36,322 nt of DNA from contig SXZI01000051.1 in NCBI GenBank assembly GCA_005788035.1, positions 1-36,322 on the forward strand. Reading direction: 5' to 3'. This DNA is from Bacteroidota bacterium. GTDB lineage: Bacteria > Bacteroidota > Ignavibacteria > Kapaibacteriales > UBA961. Positions within the stretch are counted from its first letter, which is position 1, and each line of letters starts with the position of its first letter. Shown piece after piece: positions 13,521 through 27,417 of this stretch. A program made the position numbers and the translations under genes. The notes beneath the pieces were generated by a model, which saw nothing but the letters and a program-made list of their open reading frames with translations, was not told the DNA's origin and searched no databases.

Positions 13521-16500
13521 TCAGCGATTGATGGTAAAGGGCTTTACTTCCGTGAATGGGCCTGCCATGATTCTACAGAAATAATTGCCATTTGGCAATG
13601 CATCACTTGGAATGGCAAGGCGATATTCACCTGGTTCCAATATTTCATCAACTGCCAATGAGACGCGCTCACCAAGAGAATTATAGACTTCAACTGTGGT
13701 GGCTACTTTGAAACCAATGCTATAATCAATGGTAATATTTCCTGATTGCAATGGATTCGGTGAAACTCCTTTCAATGAAAATGCAGTGCTACCAAATGAA
13801 ATGAGTCGACCATTGATGAAACATGCATCCAATGAAACTGTTCCCGGCTTTGTTTTAATTGGTGTACAAAGCGAACGATCTTTGGTTGTTGCATCAGTGA
13901 TATCAATCATATATGTTGATGAATCACTCATCAAAATCTTGAAATCTCCAATGATGAAATCACCATTATTTGGATTAGTGGATCCTGTTGCTTTGATTGA
14001 AAGACCATCGGTGGACTCAGTAGCAGTGATAGTCCAATTTGGAAGGCCCGGCCCTGCTTTGATCGAACCTGTTTCATAAGCCATCATGTCTGAATCATAG
14101 TGAAGCTTCATATCAATGGATCGCACCTGTGTTACAGGCCATTTTGATTGATCCTGTGTACTGCCTTTCACAGCAATGGTCTTCACTGTTCCTGCTTTGA
14201 TTTTGTCCATTGCACTCGGTGATACTTCGAGCAAAATCTCAACAGAGAATCCAAATCCGTCCAATTCAATGAAATCAGTACGGATATTACCTTGTGCATC
14301 TTTGAGATTTGTTGGAGTGACAAGTACTTGTGCCTTATAGGGTCTTTGTGCATCCGGCGAGAAAGTCACGCCAACGATATATGAATCACCCGGCTTAATA
14401 GTAATCGGATATGTTTGTGGATCCAATGTGAATGAACCAGCATCTGCACCGATCAATTGCATATCTCCAATGATCAAATCATCAGTTCCCGGATTTGTGA
14501 TGGTGGATGTCAATCGCTTGTCATCGCAGAAAATCACATTTCCATAAGAAATAGGTGTAACTTTGATGTCAGGATAACGCGTTTCAATACCTGTACCAAT
14601 CACATCCACATTTGTGATGATTCTTGGTTCTTCGATTGTTCTCGTTCCCGGGGCAGCATCATTGTTGATGTCAACAGCTGTTATTCTTTGACCAATATCA
14701 GTTGGTTTGAATTTTACGGGGATTACCAATTCTCCACTAATCGGGATAGAAACATTTGATGGCAATGTTGCGGGAGAATCCCATTCAAAATCGGAGGCAT
14801 TTGGTCCGCTTGCACTAAAGTCCATGGACTCAATAAACAATGGAGCACTTGTGCTTGTATTCTTGATAATCACTACGCCATTGTTTGCAGAATAACTTCC
14901 AACCAAAACCGGGTTTTGGAATATATATCCTGTTGCTTGAATTTTAGGTAGAAAGCCATATCCTTTTAATGTTCCTATTGCTGAACCGGCATTATTTGCG
15001 CTTGCAGTGATTGTTGTTGTATGATCAAATTCACTTGTTGGTTCATATTCAATCTGGATAGTGACTTTATCTCCATTATTTCTTAAGACGAATGGCGCAG
15101 CATCACTTACAGGGGGATTGACATTGATGATTCTAAAATTAGTGTTTGCGGGTGTTGCAAGTTCAACTTTAGTCACATTTGCTGGAGCAGATCCTGAATT
15201 CGTCACATAGACTTCCTTCATCAATACTGTTCCCTGACGACGTTTGCCCCAGTCTTGATCAGTAATAATCAATCCAGGTTGAATGCCTGTACCATACCAT
15301 GTAGAATTTGGCGAACAATCATCACCATAAGAATCCGACTCGAATACGGCGATGATCGTATCTGATTTCTCTTGAGTCGGGTTGAAACAGATTGAATTGA
15401 AAAATACATTCGCCTTCGGTGCAATCTTGAATGGGAATGCAGGATTTGAAGGTGATGATACGGTGAATGGCAGGCTCACACCTTTGATGCCTGTGACTGT
15501 GAGTGTATCAGTACCTGTATTTGAAATTTTCAAACCAACAGAAGCATTGTCATCCTTGCATATTTTTTGATTTATGGGTACTCTACCCGCATTCCATTGC
15601 GGTTCAACTGCAATGCAAGGTCGAACGCCTTGACCTTTCAATGGCCATTTGAATTCAGCACATTCGGTTTTTGCCATCAATGAATCAATGTCGAATGTTT
15701 TTTCATCCGGCATTTCTCTAATCGGAGTGTAAGCTATCTTCACATCACGACTTTCACCGGCTTTTAAAGGTGTGGTATCAGCGCTTATGAGCTTGAACTC
15801 TTTGCCAAATCTTGTTTTGATTTCTTTGAGCTTTATCTCATTTGTGCTTTCATTTTTTAGTTGAACCGTCATTTCTTTGGTTGTACCCAGACGGACGCGA
15901 CCGAATTCGACAGGATCCGGATTCAGTGCAAGTTTATCGACTGTATAACGCACACTGTCGATCGTATAATTGCCGGCGCGATCCATCACGACAAAAATCG
16001 CGAATGCATCTTTTGTTTTGTCAAGCACTTTGAATTTGAATTGGAATTCTTTCACTTTTGGGTCAACCACGATTCGATCAGCAGTGATGAATTCCAAAGC
16101 ATAATTCGTTGAAACGGAGTCGATCATTTCTATGGTTGAGATACCTTGATCAATTTGTGCTGTGTCCGGTGGCGGACCGAATGAACGCACTTCTGTTGCT
16201 GTATACGTGAAGTCACCACAATCTTCTTCGAATGTGAGAACGGGTGGCAATGTATCTATTTCGTCAAGTTTTCTGATGGCCATTGCTGCTGGCCAGCCAT
16301 AGGAGTCGAAGGAACTGAAACCATAGATATACCCACCGAATCTAGTCTGACTTGTTACTTTGTGAGGGCCGGGTGCAACATTTATATTCTGCCAAAAGAG
16401 ATTGGTTCCAGGGATGCGATTTGACAAAAATGTGGGTTGTCGAATCCAAATAGGCTTGCCATCCAATGTTACTGACTTGAGTTTTTTCTGTTCTGCATCG

Positions 16501-17783
16501 GTTGAATCTCCCTCTGCAACAACATTGAACCAATTAGTACTAAACGCACTGTTTGCAGGAGATTGAAAAACCGTTGCTTGAATATATTGCTCTTGGGGTG
16601 TAACGATGATCATGAATGGATCGAATTCATCACCTAAATCCCAATTGGCGGAGTAGGAATATTGCATGACCAAAATTGGTTTATCGGCTTCCCAAACTGA
16701 AGTACCACGGAAACCTTCAACCAATCCACGACCTACATATTGATTGAAATCCTCAAAAAATTCACCGGCATTCAAAATTCCCTCACGTTGACCAAGCAAG
16801 TCGCCACTTACTTTATCATAGTATTTCATTTTCCAGCGTGTTTGATTCTGAGAGGCAATAACACGGAAAAAATCACCTTTATTGTCTCGTTTATATTCTA
16901 CTGTTGCATACCGTTTCCCCCATGCCTGTACAGGAGGGAGCATTTCAACAATATGATCTCGCCCATTTACATTTGTAGCAGGTATCATGCATCGTTCTTG
17001 ATAAGAAACCAATCCAATGGGTTTGTTGGATGTAATCTTTGAGCCTGACATGTCAAAGACGCCACGCGTTGATGCTTCACCTTTCACATTGAAGATTTGT
17101 CCTTTCATCAATGTTGCTTTAATGGTCTTTCCAAGGCGATTTCCTTTTACTGTTTTAGCACCTGCATTAGCTGCACCCCTACCTCGTAGGAGGATGGAGA
17201 TTTCAGTTTCATCCTCTGAGGCAACAACAGTGAAACCTGTAGCCCATCTGCGAACTTCATTGAAGTCATAATAACTGAGGTGAATATATTCCGTTCCCCA
17301 AACACTTGTGGGTAATGCAAGGAATCCTTCTGAAGTCACCGGCTTTGCATTCAATACATACACGGAAATTGGAGCATCTGCAAAAACATGCACGGCAATG
17401 TCATCAGGCACTTCACTAGAAGTTACTTCCCATGCAGTGGAAACGGAACCGTCTCTCGTGCTGAATGTCACAACATCCAAAGCACGTAATGCTTTCTTGC
17501 GACTAAAGCCCTGACCCGGAACTTCAAGTGTAACGACGGTATTTGTGGAGCCTGTCACATATATTTCAATGGCATTTAACGGTGCTTGAGCATTATCATT
17601 CATTGGGATAGCAAACCAAAAATCTTTCCCTTGAGCTGAATTATTCAAGACAGCTTCTGGTGCGGGAAATTTCTTCGCCACTTCTGGAAAATTTTGTCTG
17701 TGTGATTGCGCTTGCAATCCAATTACATTCATTGCAATGGCAAGCAAACAGACGAGAATTCGTACACCACTGTTCATTCTCAT
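13521..17783 (-). CDS. Giant secreted protein: IgGFc-binding-like domain, choice-of-anchor-D repeats, T9SS sorting domain
   Basis: About 1,420 residues. Order of parts: signal peptide ('VRILVCLLAIAMNVIGLQAQ'); about residues 45-410, a region starting 'GKDFWFAIP' that resembles the IgGFc-binding protein N-terminal domain of secreted bacterial proteins; about 620-1120, at least five Ig-like ASH/choice-of-anchor-D units, each with a 'FGxVxLGTT...VTVxN' style opening ('EFGRVRLGTTKEMTVQLKN', 'KEVYVTNSGSAPANVTKV', 'TSTITNPGTDDLIIGDM'); a cohesin-like stretch about 1180-1330; and the final 86 residues form a T9SS type A sorting domain ('SPNPLQSGNITIDYSI', 'VYNSLGERV', 'LPNGNYFCRI', ending 'VKPFTINR'). 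It should be exported by Sec, then moved across the outer membrane by T9SS and anchored or released; adhesion is the likely role. The start is the ATG at 17781-17783; a GTG just before (17786) and an ATG at 17777 are alternatives. Confidence 0.9.
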   Translation of the reverse strand: MRMNSGVRILVCLLAIAMNVIGLQAQSHRQNFPEVAKKFPAPEAVLNNSAQGKDFWFAIPMNDNAQAPLNAIEIYVTGSTNTVVTLEVPGQGFSRKKALRALDVVTFSTRDGSVSTAWEVTSSEVPDDIAVHVFADAPISVYVLNAKPVTSEGFLALPTSVWGTEYIHLSYYDFNEVRRWATGFTVVASEDETEISILLRGRGAANAGAKTVKGNRLGKTIKATLMKGQIFNVKGEASTRGVFDMSGSKITSNKPIGLVSYQERCMIPATNVNGRDHIVEMLPPVQAWGKRYATVEYKRDNKGDFFRVIASQNQTRWKMKYYDKVSGDLLGQREGILNAGEFFEDFNQYVGRGLVEGFRGTSVWEADKPILVMQYSYSANWDLGDEFDPFMIIVTPQEQYIQATVFQSPANSAFSTNWFNVVAEGDSTDAEQKKLKSVTLDGKPIWIRQPTFLSNRIPGTNLFWQNINVAPGPHKVTSQTRFGGYIYGFSSFDSYGWPAAMAIRKLDEIDTLPPVLTFEEDCGDFTYTATEVRSFGPPPDTAQIDQGISTIEMIDSVSTNYALEFITADRIVVDPKVKEFQFKFKVLDKTKDAFAIFVVMDRAGNYTIDSVRYTVDKLALNPDPVEFGRVRLGTTKEMTVQLKNESTNEIKLKEIKTRFGKEFKLISADTTPLKAGESRDVKIAYTPIREMPDEKTFDIDSLMAKTECAEFKWPLKGQGVRPCIAVEPQWNAGRVPINQKICKDDNASVGLKISNTGTDTLTVTGIKGVSLPFTVSSPSNPAFPFKIAPKANVFFNSICFNPTQEKSDTIIAVFESDSYGDDCSPNSTWYGTGIQPGLIITDQDWGKRRQGTVLMKEVYVTNSGSAPANVTKVELATPANTNFRIINVNPPVSDAAPFVLRNNGDKVTIQIEYEPTSEFDHTTTITASANNAGSAIGTLKGYGFLPKIQATGYIFQNPVLVGSYSANNGVVIIKNTSTSAPLFIESMDFSASGPNASDFEWDSPATLPSNVSIPISGELVIPVKFKPTDIGQRITAVDINNDAAPGTRTIEEPRIITNVDVIGTGIETRYPDIKVTPISYGNVIFCDDKRLTSTITNPGTDDLIIGDMQLIGADAGSFTLDPQTYPITIKPGDSYIVGVTFSPDAQRPYKAQVLVTPTNLKDAQGNIRTDFIELDGFGFSVEILLEVSPSAMDKIKAGTVKTIAVKGSTQDQSKWPVTQVRSIDMKLHYDSDMMAYETGSIKAGPGLPNWTITATESTDGLSIKATGSTNPNNGDFIIGDFKILMSDSSTYMIDITDATTKDRSLCTPIKTKPGTVSLDACFINGRLISFGSTAFSLKGVSPNPLQSGNITIDYSIGFKVATTVEVYNSLGERVSLAVDEILEPGEYRLAIPSDALPNGNYFCRIMAGPFTEVKPFTINR

Positions 17784-17796
17784 CACGCTCCGTGAT
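17782..17796 (-). promoter_or_regulatory. Hairpin enclosing the ribosome-binding site of the giant T9SS gene
   Basis: ATCACG-CTC-CGTGAT is a perfect 6-bp inverted repeat. On the transcript the GGAG ribosome-binding site spans the loop and the stem edge, and the stem touches the start codon. It could limit translation initiation, or be chance. Confidence 0.35.
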
Positions 17797-17894: not shown

Positions 17895-18758
17895 TCAATC
17901 ATTGCCAGACCATGCCATATTGTCGATGAGCCGTGTCTTGCCCAAAAAACCAGCTACGAGTAGGACAATTTCATCTTTTTCAGAAAACTCATCAGGCATT
18001 TCAAGAGTATCACCCAAAGCGGCATTGCAATACTGGATCTCAAATTCCGGGCATGTTGCAAGTATAACTTTCATCTGTTCTTCTATACTTATTCTGCTGC
18101 GAATACCTTCCCGAATAAGTGATAGACCTGTCTGCAGTGCCGATTGTAACACCAAAGCTGATTTTTTTTCTTCTGGGCTTAGATATACATTACGTGAACT
18201 CATGGCCAGGCCGGAGGATTCGCGTAAAGTTGGAATCACCTGTATATCGATCCCCATATTTAAATCCTTCACCATCTGCTTGATCACCAAAGTCTGCTGA
18301 TAGTCTTTTTGTCCAAAATAGGCCGCATCCGGCTTCGTGGCTGCAAATAACTTTGCTACTACTGTTGCAACACCCTCAAAATGCCCCGGTCGATACAATC
18401 CTTCGAATGATTTGCTTATGTTGCCAATTGTAATGGTGGTTTGATATTCAGGGGGATACATTTCATCAATCGAGGGTATAAACACATACTTGCCACCTGC
18501 TGCCGAAATGATGGCGATATCTCGCTCAGGGTCTCGAGGATAGCGCTCAAAGTCTTCCTTCGGTCCAAATTGCAGGGGATTCACAAATATGGTTGTGATC
18601 ACTATGTCATGATGTTTGACTGCCTCCCGAATAAGCGAGGCATGCCCTTCATGCAAATACCCCATGGTTGGAACACAGGCTATGCTCTTCCCTTCTTTGC
18701 GAAGCGCATTGGAAATAGACTGCATATCAGAAATTGAATGTATTACGTTAAGGGACAT
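17895..18758 (-). CDS. panC: Pantothenate synthetase
   Basis: 287 residues, typical length. PanC joins pantoate and beta-alanine with ATP to make pantothenate, the coenzyme A precursor. Motifs: 'VPTMGYLHEGHASLI' with the HIGH-like His36-Glu-Gly-His39, 'IFVNPLQFGPKEDFERYPRD', 'GQKDYQQ', and the KMSKS-like loop 'LAMSSRN' near residue 195. ATG start at 18756-18758. The start codon is only 3 bases from the start of the divergent hypothetical gene, so either the two share an extremely short control region or one of them is transcribed from within the other. No panB or panD is seen here. Confidence 0.97.
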   Translation of the reverse strand: MSLNVIHSISDMQSISNALRKEGKSIACVPTMGYLHEGHASLIREAVKHHDIVITTIFVNPLQFGPKEDFERYPRDPERDIAIISAAGGKYVFIPSIDEMYPPEYQTTITIGNISKSFEGLYRPGHFEGVATVVAKLFAATKPDAAYFGQKDYQQTLVIKQMVKDLNMGIDIQVIPTLRESSGLAMSSRNVYLSPEEKKSALVLQSALQTGLSLIREGIRSRISIEEQMKVILATCPEFEIQYCNAALGDTLEMPDEFSEKDEIVLLVAGFLGKTRLIDNMAWSGND

Positions 18759-18761
18759 ATC

Positions 18762-19550
18762 ATGGTCAACATTTCAATGATTGGATTCTTATTATTGTCG
18801 GGGTTCTTTGACTACACTGAAAGTCATGAACAAAAACCACACAAATATACCACCAAAAACAAGTCAGAGAGTAGTCTCTTTGATAGTCTGATGAAACAAT
18901 GCTTCAAAAACAATGTCCTCCGCTGCGACTCATGCGATACCGTATCGCTCAGGCGATATTTGGAAGAATCATCAGCTCGCATTGAAAATGGTGGGCGCAA
19001 TCAACAAGCAAGACTTTGCTCTTTGATGAATGTCTATCATGCTTGGTTGATACTAAGATTATGTGCATCCAATGGCTTGCAAAGAATCTCGAATGATTCG
19101 ATGTTCTTGTACAATGATACATTGATGATTGACAGATCAAGATTCACTCTTGCAACTTTACGAGCAAGCATACTTGAGATGGCTCAAAAAGAACAATTGC
19201 AGATTTGGTGTTCTTTATGGGATGGAACTGTTTCCGGGGCTTCGCACCCAAAGAAGGAATTTCATCCCCAAACATATTCATCTACAATCAAATCAAAAGC
19301 AAAATCGTATTTCAAATCTACACATGATGAATATGTATTGGATAGATCTAAAGGAATATTAAGCTTATCGGAATCATTGCTGCGTGAATTGTCACTCATC
19401 AAGGGATCTAGCATGCGTGAGACACCTTATATCCTGGAATTGATACTTCCTTACATTCCCGAAATGGACGCAGCATATTGCCTTGTGAATAAACACATGC
19501 TTCGTGTGAGAAGCATGATAGTTTCTGACAGAATACAAATGGTTCAATGA
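18762..19550 (+). CDS. Hypothetical protein, 262 residues
   Basis: I do not recognise a family. The ATG at 18762 is preferred because AAGGGA lies about 7 bases upstream; the protein then starts with a hydrophobic stretch ('MIGFLLLSGFF') that may be a weak signal peptide or anchor, followed by a basic, Ser-rich region, a CxxC ('RCDSCDT', near residue 47) and mixed alpha/beta sequence. No competing long frame lies on the other strand, which supports it being real. It is one of few rightward genes here, divergent from panC with a 3-base gap and convergent with the recombinase gene (ends overlap by 7 bases). A short hairpin (19496-19517) falls near its 3' end, inside the coding region. Confidence 0.55.
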   Translation: MVNISMIGFLLLSGFFDYTESHEQKPHKYTTKNKSESSLFDSLMKQCFKNNVLRCDSCDTVSLRRYLEESSARIENGGRNQQARLCSLMNVYHAWLILRLCASNGLQRISNDSMFLYNDTLMIDRSRFTLATLRASILEMAQKEQLQIWCSLWDGTVSGASHPKKEFHPQTYSSTIKSKAKSYFKSTHDEYVLDRSKGILSLSESLLRELSLIKGSSMRETPYILELILPYIPEMDAAYCLVNKHMLRVRSMIVSDRIQMVQ

Positions 19551-20506
19551 ACGAATTCCAGCATATGTAATGCTTGATGCAATCCTGCTTCGTGTGCTTG
19601 ATGGGTTAAATTCAGATACCGCTGTGCTATGGAAGGTGAAACTATGCGCATTCTTTGCATGATTTCTTCAAGGTCTTGTCCTGCCAATGCCATGATGCAA
19701 CCGGCGGTATGGCGCAAAGAATATGGCGACAGTACCTTTTGTCGATCAGGTGATATACCGGATTTTTTCATTCGCTTTTGAAAAGCATCACGTAATCCAC
19801 GAACGCTCATCCTGCAGCCTAATGAGCGATTACTCAAACTGTGAAAAAGTGGGGCATCTTGGATCATGACTTCAGGGAATCGCTCGTGCAAATAGCTCGA
19901 TAAAGCTTCGCTTGCAAAATGAGGAAGTTTCACCTCGCATTGTTTTTCACTGATTGCCTCTGGTAGCTTGATCACCGAGTTCATGGATAGCGTTTGAGTA
20001 TCGGCAATCGTCAAGCTCAACAATTCCTGTTCTTTCAACATAGATCCGAGCATGAATGAAAACAATGCTTTATCACGCAATCCATGCATACTTTGCATAT
20101 CCATTGTATCAAACAACATTAACAATTCATGAAAATTGAAAAATGATGGAATTGTTGAGATGGGATTTTTTTGTGCATGAACATGCTTCGCTGGATTTCG
20201 TGGAAGAACTTTCACTTCCACCAGATATTGCGAAAATCTTCTCAATGATGTAAGATATGTCGAAATGGAAGGAGATTGCAATTTCTTGGTTTCAATCAGA
20301 TGAGATTTATACCGTTCAAAATCCTTGATACGAAATTTGAATTTTCTGTCCTGGATCACAAATGACAAAAAACATCGCAATGAACGTGAATATGTATCTG
20401 CTGTATGGGGTGATGCTGATTTACGAATATGGGATTCAAATACTGAAATATGCTCAGCGAGAACGGCATTTCTAAGTGTGACGGGTTGATACATGTCATT
20501 GATCAT
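19544..20506 (-). CDS. Tyrosine recombinase/phage integrase family protein with altered catalytic residues
   Basis: 320 residues with the XerC/XerD layout: an N-terminal SAM-like core-binding domain (about 15-110, 'TADTYSRSLRCFLSFV', 'STYLTSLRRFSQYLVEV') and a catalytic domain (120-315). The C-terminal active-site block aligns well by spacing: Arg265 and His266 in 'YSLRHTAG' and Tyr297 in 'IAQRYLNL', 32 residues apart as in XerD. But the first catalytic Arg is replaced by Lys158 ('GSMLKEQELLSL'), the His of HxxR is Tyr262, and the His/Trp of 'LGH' is Ile288. It may be inactive in strand cleavage, have changed chemistry, or work as a partner subunit. It starts 19 bases after the VWA-OmpA gene and could be read from the same transcript. 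No flanking repeats or other phage genes are seen. Confidence 0.85.
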   Translation of the reverse strand: MINDMYQPVTLRNAVLAEHISVFESHIRKSASPHTADTYSRSLRCFLSFVIQDRKFKFRIKDFERYKSHLIETKKLQSPSISTYLTSLRRFSQYLVEVKVLPRNPAKHVHAQKNPISTIPSFFNFHELLMLFDTMDMQSMHGLRDKALFSFMLGSMLKEQELLSLTIADTQTLSMNSVIKLPEAISEKQCEVKLPHFASEALSSYLHERFPEVMIQDAPLFHSLSNRSLGCRMSVRGLRDAFQKRMKKSGISPDRQKVLSPYSLRHTAGCIMALAGQDLEEIMQRMRIVSPSIAQRYLNLTHQAHEAGLHQALHMLEFVH

Positions 20507-20525: not shown

Positions 20526-21845
20526 CTATTTGCCAATGATGATCACTTCTGTTCGACGATTCAATCGTCTGCCAAATTCGGTTGCATTGCTTGCGATGGG
20601 CTTTGTATCTCCAAAACCGGCAGACTCCAATCGCTTTGGGTCTATGCCTTTCTTTATGAGATATTGTCGCACCGCTTCTGCACGGAACATAGAGAGTTTG
20701 CGATTCAGAGACTTGCTTCCTCTTGAGTCAGTATGACCTTCAATGCGAACAGACACTTTAGTCCTATTCAGAAGAAATTCACGCAATATTTCCAATTCAT
20801 AGACCGAATCCGGAAGAGTTGAACTATTTGTTTGAAAGAGTAGATTCTCAATAATGAGTTTTCTTCCCAATTCAACAATTGGAATGATTTTCTTGACAAT
20901 CTCTCTTTTCTGCTCATCGATAATACCAACACTCAATGAATCAGGGATAGCTGTTTTATCTGAACGATATGTGATCGCAAATAGATTTGTAAGCTGCGTG
21001 GAATAATCATCAAGAATCGTTGCAAAAGGAGTAGAGATGTCAAACATGGAACCACGTGTACCCTCGGTCAATGTTCGATAGTCTTGCAATACGGGAGGAA
21101 CAATCGTGAATAATCTAATGGAATTATCTTTTAATGTTTGAATAATTGATTCCGTTGTTTGCAATGTTCTACCCTGTCCTCGCTCGCCCTTCTGATGATA
21201 TGGTGCATCTGTAATAATGATTGCTACTTTGTTCGCGGCTGGTCTGAATTTCATTTTCGACATGTCGGACAATGCTTCGAGAGCATTTTCTTTATCATCT
21301 CCGCCACCTGTTGCCCATACACCTGTGAGCCATTTACCGAAATCTTTTACATTGTCTGTGGGATTATAAACTTTTTCTACTACATCAGAAAAAAGAACAA
21401 GTCCTACGCGATAATCAATGCCTTTTGCGGAAACATTCCCAACAAACTTTTCTATATTATTTCTGATTGCATTGATATATGTACCCATTGTGGCTGTAAC
21501 ATCAAGCACGAAAACGAAGTCAATAGGAATATTTTCTTTGAATGAAATCTTCTCAATTGAAATAACTTTCTTTGTGACCCCATTTTCAACCACTGAAAAT
21601 TCTTTTGGATTCAATGTATCCAATGCGGTACCATTTGCTTTTACCGCTTCAACAATCAATTTCACTTCAGGGAATTTCGTGATGTCTATGTTTTGAATAG
21701 CCATCCGAATATTACCTTCACCCATTTTCAAGCGTGCTGACTCTGCCGCTTGTTTTGCTTGCGCTTTGACAGAATCTGTTTGGGCATGCAAACATGTTGC
21801 AGAAATAAACAGGAAGATTGTAAGAATGGTGGCGAAGAGATTCAT
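20526..21845 (-). CDS. VWA domain protein with C-terminal OmpA peptidoglycan-binding domain
   Basis: 439 residues from the ATG at 21843-21845; the signal peptide ('LFATILTIFLFISATCLHAQ') follows directly, whereas a longer TTG-started frame would cross a terminator hairpin. Residues about 45-100 are a small beta domain like those before VWA domains ('LNPKEFSVVENGVTKKVI'). A von Willebrand A domain follows (about 105-290) with a MIDAS-type 'DVTATM' and 'IIITDAPY'. The last 110 residues are OmpA-like, with 'RIEGHTDSRGS' and 'AGFGDTKPIASNATEFGRRL' that bind diaminopimelate of peptidoglycan. It would be periplasmic or outer-membrane attached, binding the cell wall at one end and a protein partner through the VWA. 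Last envelope gene of the leftward cluster. Confidence 0.88.
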   Translation of the reverse strand: MNLFATILTIFLFISATCLHAQTDSVKAQAKQAAESARLKMGEGNIRMAIQNIDITKFPEVKLIVEAVKANGTALDTLNPKEFSVVENGVTKKVISIEKISFKENIPIDFVFVLDVTATMGTYINAIRNNIEKFVGNVSAKGIDYRVGLVLFSDVVEKVYNPTDNVKDFGKWLTGVWATGGGDDKENALEALSDMSKMKFRPAANKVAIIITDAPYHQKGERGQGRTLQTTESIIQTLKDNSIRLFTIVPPVLQDYRTLTEGTRGSMFDISTPFATILDDYSTQLTNLFAITYRSDKTAIPDSLSVGIIDEQKREIVKKIIPIVELGRKLIIENLLFQTNSSTLPDSVYELEILREFLLNRTKVSVRIEGHTDSRGSKSLNRKLSMFRAEAVRQYLIKKGIDPKRLESAGFGDTKPIASNATEFGRRLNRRTEVIIIGK

Positions 21846-21857
21846 AATCGTGGTCTT

Positions 21858-21898
21858 ACAAAAGAAACCCCCTGACAAGATAACACCTGCACAGGGGG
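21858..21898 (-). terminator. Intrinsic terminator inside the envelope cluster
   Basis: CCCCCTG / CAGGGGG, a perfect 7-bp stem with a 17-base loop (21868-21898), followed on the minus strand by TTTCTTTTGT. It lies 22 bases after the stop of the 465-residue barrel gene and ends 13 bases before the VWA-OmpA start, with no promoter visible in between; it probably sets partial read-through. Confidence 0.7.
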
Positions 21899-25218: not shown

Positions 25219-27417
25219 TTAAAATACGATGTTAAACTTGCAAGACTTGGATGCTTCAGGAGATGTTTCTCCACTTGGCAATTGTGCAGCAGCCTTGGCT
25301 TGTATCTTGATAGAACCTCCGGTTCCGCGTGGTATTGGAAGCTTTCCATCGAGTCTGTAACTCTGGGTCCACTTTCCACTAGTAAGCTTTGGCTCACCAA
25401 CTGGTACCACTTTGTAACCTTTGATGTTCTGTTCCTTCACTTCAAACTTGACACCTTTGATAGTTGCAGTGATGTCGGCATAAGTTGGCGCCTTGATTTC
25501 GACATTCACGAAGAATATCGGAGTCTTAGCATCCGTGATGCGCGATGCATCTCCACAAACAACACGTGGGCGCTTCGGACCTGGTTGCGCTTCAACTGCA
25601 CTTGAGCCATCTGTTGGGAATATCTGAACTTGAATTGACTGATCTTTTGGATCTTGCCAAACAATGCGAACACTAACGCGATCAGCATCAATCGGAATAT
25701 TATATCCATCATTTGCTCCAACTTGCAAGCCAACGACCGGTGATTTCTTGGTCGTACCATCAATGATGGTTCTAAATTGGCTACCCGGAATCGTGCTTCC
25801 TGAAGTTGGAACGGCAGTGAATTCAACTGCATCACCCTTGGACAATGACTTGACCAATCCGGTGATTTCTTCTTCATTTTTCACATCATCGCCTTCTTCA
25901 GTTTTGACTGTTGCCAAACCGGTTGCGAAGATTTTCAAATTCATTTCTTCAACGACTGTCTTCCCTGCTGATGACAATGAAGCAGTCATTTTATATTCAC
26001 CTGGTGATAAATCACGGTTGATTTCAACTTTATAGCGACCAGCTTTTCCATTCGTGCTCGTAGGTCCAACTTTGGTTATGCTCACTCCTGATGTTGAACC
26101 ATTGAATTGAATGGATGGAGTTGCTTTATCATAAAGGTTAGCTACGAATGTTGCAACGTATTTTCCGGCTTTGTCGAATGAATACAATTGACCATTGTCA
26201 TCCCAAGTGATAATTGGATCTTCTTGCTCAATCTCTGGTTGCTGAACAAAAATGTCAATCTCAATGCTACCCTTATTTTGGTCAAATGTGGTATATCTAC
26301 CCGGTGATAGAAGCTTCGCGATATAGCCGAATAAATCGATCCGGCTGGTATTTTGAGCAACTTTATCACCTCCACCATCAATGACTTTCTTCTTAGCGGC
26401 TTCCAATTGATCATTGAACTTGTCGAGATCCAATGAACCATTTGCAAAAGCATCTGCTGAAGGAATACCTGTTCCTGATAATTGATCTGATAATTGGCGC
26501 TGAACGCTTCTCAAATCCTTTACCTTCAATTGAACAGTACCAATATTTACTTTTTGATCATCTTTCAATGAATTGAATTTCTGTTCAGCAGAAATACCCA
26601 TGATACGATTCGTCTGTGAACTGAAACGCAATTTATACCAACCCGGTTTGCTCGGTGGTTGGAAATTGCAGACAAAAGCTCGTTTTGTCAATTTTCCATT
26701 GTTCGATTGACGTAGTCTATCTGTTTTCTCTACTGAATAACCAAATATGCGATTCACTCTCGCAGAATCAGGTGGAGCAAATTGAGCAATATCACCTGTT
26801 TTCACTGATGACTCACCATATGATGGCTCTTTGAAATCCTTCATGGATTTTGTGCTCAATTCCAATTTGCGAGTTGCCTGCAATTCCCAAGTTTCTGTTG
26901 AGGTTGCATTCGGCGGATTCGCAAGTCTCATCCCCGATTGTGGAGATGATTGAACTTTCTTGAATTCAGAGGCCGGAGGTGAAGGAGGAACATCCACTTC
27001 TTTACTTGGATGAAAATACACCTCATACTGCAATTCCTGAACATTCGCGAGTTTTTTGAGTGTCTCTATTTTTTCTTTTTTCTGAGCATCATCCATTCCA
27101 TCCATATTCAATGCTGATGCAACGTCTGTAACACCAACTTCGATATAATATGTACGAAACTTTTTGAAATACTTTCTTTGCTCTTCTGGGAGTTTTTCTG
27201 ACAAAACAATGGCATCCTGAGGTCTCGTATTGATACCTTCGGTTCCAGCACCTGACTGCAACTGCGTCAGAATACTCTCAACGATGCGCATTGATTCCTG
27301 CTGCTTTTTTACTAGATGCTCCTCAGCTTCATCGCGTTCAACGATGATGATGAGAAGTTCCAGAATAACTGCAAGATAGAGAACGAAATAAACCTTTCCG
27401 GCTCCGCCTTTTGACAT
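25219..27417 (-). CDS. GldM/PorM-like protein: one TM helix plus long periplasmic multi-domain region
   Basis: 732 residues. The N-terminus has a single membrane helix about residues 9-26 ('VYFVLYLAVILELLIII') with a buried Glu20 and then a charged helical segment ('VERDEAEEHLVKKQQES'). The rest has no further TM: a helical part to about 150, then several beta-rich, Ig-like modules ('GKYVATFVANLYDKATPSI', 'AGRYKVEINRDLSPGEYKM', and a C-terminal module ending 'KSCKFNIVF'). This layout is that of GldM/PorM, the periplasm-spanning shaft of the T9SS/gliding motor, although sequence identity is not obvious and it is longer than usual (about 520). Good GGAG ribosome-binding site about 8 bases before the ATG. 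Inference: first gene of an envelope cluster. GldL, GldK and GldN are not seen next to it, so a different anchored periplasmic protein remains possible. Confidence 0.5.
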   Translation of the reverse strand: MSKGGAGKVYFVLYLAVILELLIIIVERDEAEEHLVKKQQESMRIVESILTQLQSGAGTEGINTRPQDAIVLSEKLPEEQRKYFKKFRTYYIEVGVTDVASALNMDGMDDAQKKEKIETLKKLANVQELQYEVYFHPSKEVDVPPSPPASEFKKVQSSPQSGMRLANPPNATSTETWELQATRKLELSTKSMKDFKEPSYGESSVKTGDIAQFAPPDSARVNRIFGYSVEKTDRLRQSNNGKLTKRAFVCNFQPPSKPGWYKLRFSSQTNRIMGISAEQKFNSLKDDQKVNIGTVQLKVKDLRSVQRQLSDQLSGTGIPSADAFANGSLDLDKFNDQLEAAKKKVIDGGGDKVAQNTSRIDLFGYIAKLLSPGRYTTFDQNKGSIEIDIFVQQPEIEQEDPIITWDDNGQLYSFDKAGKYVATFVANLYDKATPSIQFNGSTSGVSITKVGPTSTNGKAGRYKVEINRDLSPGEYKMTASLSSAGKTVVEEMNLKIFATGLATVKTEEGDDVKNEEEITGLVKSLSKGDAVEFTAVPTSGSTIPGSQFRTIIDGTTKKSPVVGLQVGANDGYNIPIDADRVSVRIVWQDPKDQSIQVQIFPTDGSSAVEAQPGPKRPRVVCGDASRITDAKTPIFFVNVEIKAPTYADITATIKGVKFEVKEQNIKGYKVVPVGEPKLTSGKWTQSYRLDGKLPIPRGTGGSIKIQAKAAAQLPSGETSPEASKSCKFNIVF

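Follow-up and report, generated by a model that had tools for sequence, protein, structure and literature searches.

A family of catalytically degenerate Xer proteins in Kapabacteria and related bacteria, probably DNA-binding pseudoenzymes

The closest well-described relatives of the protein analysed here are XerC and XerD, with which it has fold, length, domain order and clear homology in common (100 bits with the NCBIfam XerC model). The family to which it belongs, which we call the third Xer family, differs from both in scoring far under the equivalog cut-offs, in forming a clade of its own and in not keeping the catalytic sextet RKHRHY. In a comparison set of 21 proteins, made up of Kapabacteria XerC and XerD together with E. 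coli XerD, the six catalytic columns are invariant in all 21. The streptococcal XerD-like protein, from a different phylum than the hosts of the third family, is a bacterial Xer relative described as not acting at dif and situated in an scpA/scpB neighbourhood; no streptococcal XerD-like family is among the NCBIfam matches of the third family, in a library that may hold no such model. A Xer group of Rhodothermales (the L220-type sibling) is the nearest clade to the third family: the two group together in the tree, and both carry an Arg immediately preceding the His position. The sibling differs in that RKHRHY is complete in most of its members, being degenerate in the Salinibacter family, and in our data it is present in Rhodothermota only.

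According to a survey of prokaryotic tyrosine recombinases (PMC8138268), subgroups vary at the first Arg and the first His of the catalytic set, and the CTnDOT integrase (IntDOT), which has Ser at the first catalytic Arg, is active because a relocated Arg takes over. Many third-family members, those with sextets beginning SK, likewise have Ser where the first Arg would be, whereas IntDOT is the integrase of a mobile element, with an arm-binding domain, and keeps the rest of the catalytic set. In eukaryotes, Crypton-derived DUF3504 proteins, yeast Cbf2/Ndc10 and Gcr1 have tyrosine-recombinase folds in which the active site has been lost and which serve in DNA binding or regulation (PMC3212892). 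They are transposon-derived and fused to other domains; the likeness to the proteins described below may be one of shared fate and not of specific kinship. Dead tyrosine recombinases acting as DNA-binding proteins are thus known from eukaryotes; the third Xer family would be a bacterial chromosomal case.

The window, the whole stretch of 36,322 nucleotides analysed (contig SXZI01000051.1 of a Bacteroidota bacterium), contains one member of this family. Its catalytic positions were assigned by alignment with E. coli XerD, and for Lys158 and Tyr297 the codon itself was also read:

19544..20506, minus strand: gene encoding the window's member of the third Xer family, a tyrosine recombinase of 320 aa with a degenerate catalytic site
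20033..20035, minus strand: codon (aaa) of Lys158, where XerD has the first catalytic Arg, R148
19958..19960, minus strand: codon of Glu183, aligned to the catalytic Lys (XerD K172)
19721..19723, minus strand: codon of Tyr262, aligned to the box-II His (XerD H244)
19712..19714, minus strand: codon of Arg265, the box-II Arg, kept (XerD R247)
19643..19645, minus strand: codon of Ile288, which fills the His/Trp position (XerD H270) and immediately follows Arg287, conserved in the family
19616..19618, minus strand: codon (tat) of Tyr297, at the nucleophile position, kept (XerD Y279)

The reading frame starts with ATG at position 20506, with a motif resembling a ribosome-binding site, AGGTGA, just 5' of it. 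The product contains an N-terminal SAM-like core-binding domain (PF02899) followed by the phage integrase fold (PF00589, E 2.4e-14), both over the Pfam cut-offs, which places it in the tyrosine recombinase/Xer superfamily. A phmmer search of the PDB retrieves E. coli XerD (1a0p, E 4e-6) and archaeal XerA (5hxy). The protein is an orthologue of neither XerC nor XerD: it scores 99.8 bits with the XerC NCBIfam model (cut-off 335) and 84.5 bits with that of XerD (cut-off 330), and in trees it falls outside both clades, which answers the question of its placement raised in the preliminary description. Its sextet reads KEYRIY instead of RKHRHY, so the set R-K-H-R-H/W-Y needed for a competent tyrosine recombinase is incomplete. 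The alignment with XerD confirms the substitutions at Lys158, Tyr262 and Ile288 and the retention of Arg265 and Tyr297; the loss of three catalytic partners described earlier therefore stands, except that a fourth had been overlooked, Glu183 in the Lys column, which lies in a beta-hairpin where the alignment is less certain than at the other catalytic positions. The pattern of substitutions is far beyond chance, since it recurs in orthologues at 31–87% identity and the dN/dS value between the window gene and its nearest relative is 0.18.

In a search of 60 relatives and the genome of origin, XerC/XerD-like proteins match at about 25% identity, and a separate, closer gene, 31–87% identical, is present in about 38 genomes. 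A scan of a species-level genome collection yielded 97 stretches with genes for relatives. The 80 best of these were kept; they come from Kapabacteria, Kryptonia, Ignavibacteriota, Chlorobiota and Rhodothermota. Several lineage names rest on the record titles of metagenome-assembled genomes and are liable to error. One contig titled Armatimonadetes (L080, JADZEY010000020.1) carries a gene that groups firmly with those of Kapabacteria, and is probably mislabelled or from a mixed bin. Among 396 genomes of the phylum, 86 match the family profile at E <= 1e-40, with exactly one copy each. Two proteins among the weakest of these 86 (L159 and L160, 148–166 bits), with the full RKHRHY set, were treated as an outgroup. 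Members of the third family score about 180 to 480 bits with profile A2, carry an Arg at the position of XerD G269 and have usually lost the first catalytic Arg; the window protein shares these properties and scores 369 bits. Y39, L43, L70, Y84, R144, D145 and D169 are invariant in the family, which also conserves a group of Arg residues largely missing from XerC and XerD (R41, R90, R227, R236, R239, R285 and R287). The median net charge is +16, versus +8 for XerC/XerD.

At least one catalytic residue is gone in 87 of the 88 family representatives. The preliminary description had proposed that the same substitutions be sought in relatives, and would have had to give way if these kept the canonical set; instead, catalytic losses are common to the family, the first Arg being absent from 85 of the 88 representatives and kept in three, and the complete set is found in one. 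The box-II His is kept in 36 of 88, the second Arg in 54, the Lys in 82 and the Tyr in 78; 35 have His at the His/Trp position. Ranked by conservation, the six catalytic columns stand at 103, 32, 148, 104, 128 and 42 among 303 columns. The sextet is mostly SKFRIY in Kapabacteria and is SKYKLY in Kryptonia; Ignavibacteriota have SKYRLY, SKHRLY, SKFRLY and others, Rhodothermota SKHTHY and, in several members, SKHTHS without the Tyr, and Chlorobiota SKHRHY, SKNRHY and RKHQHY. The 88 representatives have 31 distinct sextets. The most extreme, NAGRPF, SKQTPD, TKQSPS and TKDRFI, are encoded at loci shared with lineage mates, and their bearers are therefore true orthologues and not stray decayed genes. 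The first Arg is present in a subclade of Chlorobiota (L149, L145, L150 and L151) nested among Ser-bearing relatives, which means either a reversion there or several independent losses elsewhere; one of its members, from Chloroherpetonaceae (L149), has the full RKHRHY and is the sole complete row. On the tree, the minimum numbers of changes from canonical to lost at the six sites are 2, 5, 5, 5, 2 and 6, and the Tyr, lost in 10 of the 88 rows, requires at least six state changes. The family thus offers many natural experiments on Xer residues that serve roles other than cutting.

In a tree built without the six catalytic columns (quick mode, SH-aLRT support), the third Xer family forms a single clade, separate from XerC and from XerD, and its internal branching largely tracks the host lineages. 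Twelve close pairs have dN/dS values of 0.015–0.28, that of a pair lacking the Tyr being 0.25. The tree, the copy counts and these ratios show a monophyletic family with a single copy per genome, mainly vertical descent and purifying selection, its catalytic residues having been lost piecemeal, lineage by lineage, while the conserved Arg residues and the structural positions beyond the catalytic set have been maintained in the alignment. That the gene is a decaying pseudogene or the left-over integrase of a mobile element is scarcely credible, although catalytic residues are missing and some relatives have no gene at all. The low dN/dS values indicate that family members are not pseudogenes, intact single reading frames are found in 86 genomes, and the clade is ancient, with loci conserved lineage-wide; the selection and synteny data refute this reading. 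A mobile-element origin is likewise ruled against by the single copy per genome and the lineage-conserved neighbours, in keeping with the earlier remark that marks of mobile elements are absent.

Two neighbours flank the gene in the window's genus only:

20526..21878, minus strand: gene of a vWA-OmpA protein, 19 bases before the start of the Xer gene
18738..19550, plus strand: convergent reading frame of 270 aa with a weak DUF547 match (E 0.004)

The latter and the Xer gene share seven bases at their ends. With panC, the DUF547-like frame, the vWA-OmpA protein and unassigned, probably surface-located proteins as neighbours in the window, the envelope cluster of the preliminary description holds loosely, but this context is confined to the window's own genus. 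The sets of neighbours are, by lineage, vWA-OmpA/panC; AI-2E/amidase/ppk; SpoIIE/leuS/GT2; HPPase-E2/secA/recN; and acyltransferase/ACPS, with the order HPPase-E2-Xer-secA-recN in Rhodothermota and Xer-leuS-GT2-ABC in Ignavibacteriota. Because the local cluster changes from lineage to lineage, it gives no clue to function, and a functional partner suggested by the neighbourhood was dropped, the neighbours being constant within lineages and different between them. Two other genes of the window may be mentioned: positions 13521–17786 (minus strand) encode a surface protein of 1421 aa that combines an IgGFc-binding domain and Ig-like repeats with a weak sorting tail for type IX secretion, and positions 25219–27417 (minus strand) a protein of 732 aa with an N-terminus that looks GldM-like by eye only and has no Pfam match. 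In one genome of the window's genus (G001, L203), the Xer gene is cleanly gone and the vWA-OmpA and DUF547-like genes remain adjacent; a second, more fragmented genome of the genus (G004, L204) has the same arrangement. The gene is thus not universally essential.

AlphaFold, run with family alignments, gives the full two-domain fold for the window protein (mean pLDDT 93.2) and the same order of secondary structure elements for a Rhodothermota member lacking the Tyr (mean pLDDT 90.4). The fold is therefore predicted to be intact in both. Foldseek matches in the PDB include XerA, Cre, the integron integrase IntI, XerH and others.

Family members might still be active recombinases or DNA-nicking enzymes with an altered active site, with the missing Arg and His residues supplied from other positions, for which there is precedent in the relocated Arg of the CTnDOT integrase and in the shifted Arg that accompanies a His-to-Tyr change in IntDes, both described in PMC8138268. 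The Lys and Tyr are preferentially retained (about 90% of members) and the position of Arg265 holds Arg in all aligned Kapabacteria, each more than expected of a simply useless site; in addition, Arg285 and Arg287, conserved and absent from XerC and XerD, lie beside the old His position, near the former active site. However, most members lack three of the six positions, both His residues are gone in Kapabacteria and both Arg residues in Rhodothermota, and the Tyr has been lost repeatedly at conserved loci. The substitute Arg of the CTnDOT integrase presumably stands two residues before the Lys. This position is occupied by Gln in 70 of the 88 representatives and by Arg in seven, and is not Arg in the window protein, which in its 320 aa has no arm-binding domain either; compensation of the CTnDOT type was accordingly rejected on the alignment. 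Nor did Arg287 arise as compensation, since the fully canonical sibling clade has it too; a putative Glu159–Arg287 salt bridge occupying the former pocket was considered. A family of still active enzymes is in our judgement very improbable, and the window protein is unlikely to retain activity; some members may do so, particularly those of the Chlorobiota subclade with the first Arg.

Selection has maintained this one gene across a large group of bacteria, while the parts of the site that were lost differ between lineages, which suggests DNA binding and not cutting. We consider it probable that the window gene is an ancient paralogue of XerC/XerD turned pseudoenzyme, which has kept the two-domain DNA clamp and given up cutting and joining. 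Of the two roles put forward in the preliminary description, a repurposed DNA-binding protein or a non-catalytic partner of XerC/XerD, their common part, a role without catalysis, is the preferred interpretation, and the proposal as a whole is partly supported. The net charge, the conserved Arg residues and the fold make DNA binding by the family plausible. Such a protein would still bind DNA, as a dimer or complex that does not cleave its site, probably a short palindrome or one resembling dif, and would act through binding alone; most likely it would serve in regulation or in chromosome architecture, and next most likely in a Xer synapse, as a subunit that does not cleave. No earlier description of the family was found in the open-access literature on degenerate or inactive Xer proteins, nor, under the terms looked up, in the survey PMC8138268. 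A dead chromosomal Xer protein of bacteria, spread over several classes and formed by stepwise parallel loss, appears to be undescribed in the searchable literature; among the proteins annotated as XerC/XerD in these phyla, one kind is probably not a recombinase.

Canonical XerC and XerD were sought elsewhere in the genome of origin, as had been advised, and both are there as complete genes (L002, XerC-like, and L001, XerD-like), together with a further recombinase of 374 aa with RKHRHY. The third gene could encode a non-cleaving partner that assembles with XerC and XerD at dif or a site like it and sets which strand is cut; in Rhodothermales its partner would be the active sibling that remains. 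In engineered half-active synapses, an inactive subunit controls which strand is cut. The Xer fold is predicted to be preserved up to and including its final helices, and the family is close to the active sibling clade of Rhodothermales; both are consistent with such a role, as is the distribution of the genes: among 90 Rhodothermia genomes, 43 carry XerC and XerD without the third gene, two (f32) carry both and 45 carry the third gene without XerC or XerD of the canonical type. Canonical XerC and XerD are missing from all 45 Rhodothermales-like genomes with the third gene, and the 43 with the reverse pattern belong to other families of the class. The counts are, however, confounded by phylogeny and amount to only one or two evolutionary events. 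XerC, XerD and the third gene coexist in Kapabacteria, in Chlorobiota and in the two f32 genomes, the two genomes of the window's genus without the gene have the rest of the locus intact, and in the Salinibacter family the sibling is itself degenerate. A partner role of this kind, the main rival to the pseudoenzyme reading given above, is rather unlikely. More specific, and a long shot, is the proposal that in Rhodothermales the dead Xer protein and its active sibling form an asymmetric pair that has one non-cleaving subunit and resolves chromosome dimers through a single strand exchange, with the same subunit regulating XerCD in Kapabacteria and Chlorobiota. Many of the 45 genomes without canonical XerC and XerD carry a sibling with RKHRHY. 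The absence of canonical XerC and XerD raises the question of how chromosome dimers are resolved in these Rhodothermales. The siblings of the Salinibacter family (L258–L261; genomes G196, G363, G377 and G418) have lost catalytic residues independently and have the sextets RPDRFV, RPQRLY, RRDRLH and RKDRYR; each of these genomes thus has a pair of degenerate Xer proteins and lacks canonical XerC and XerD.
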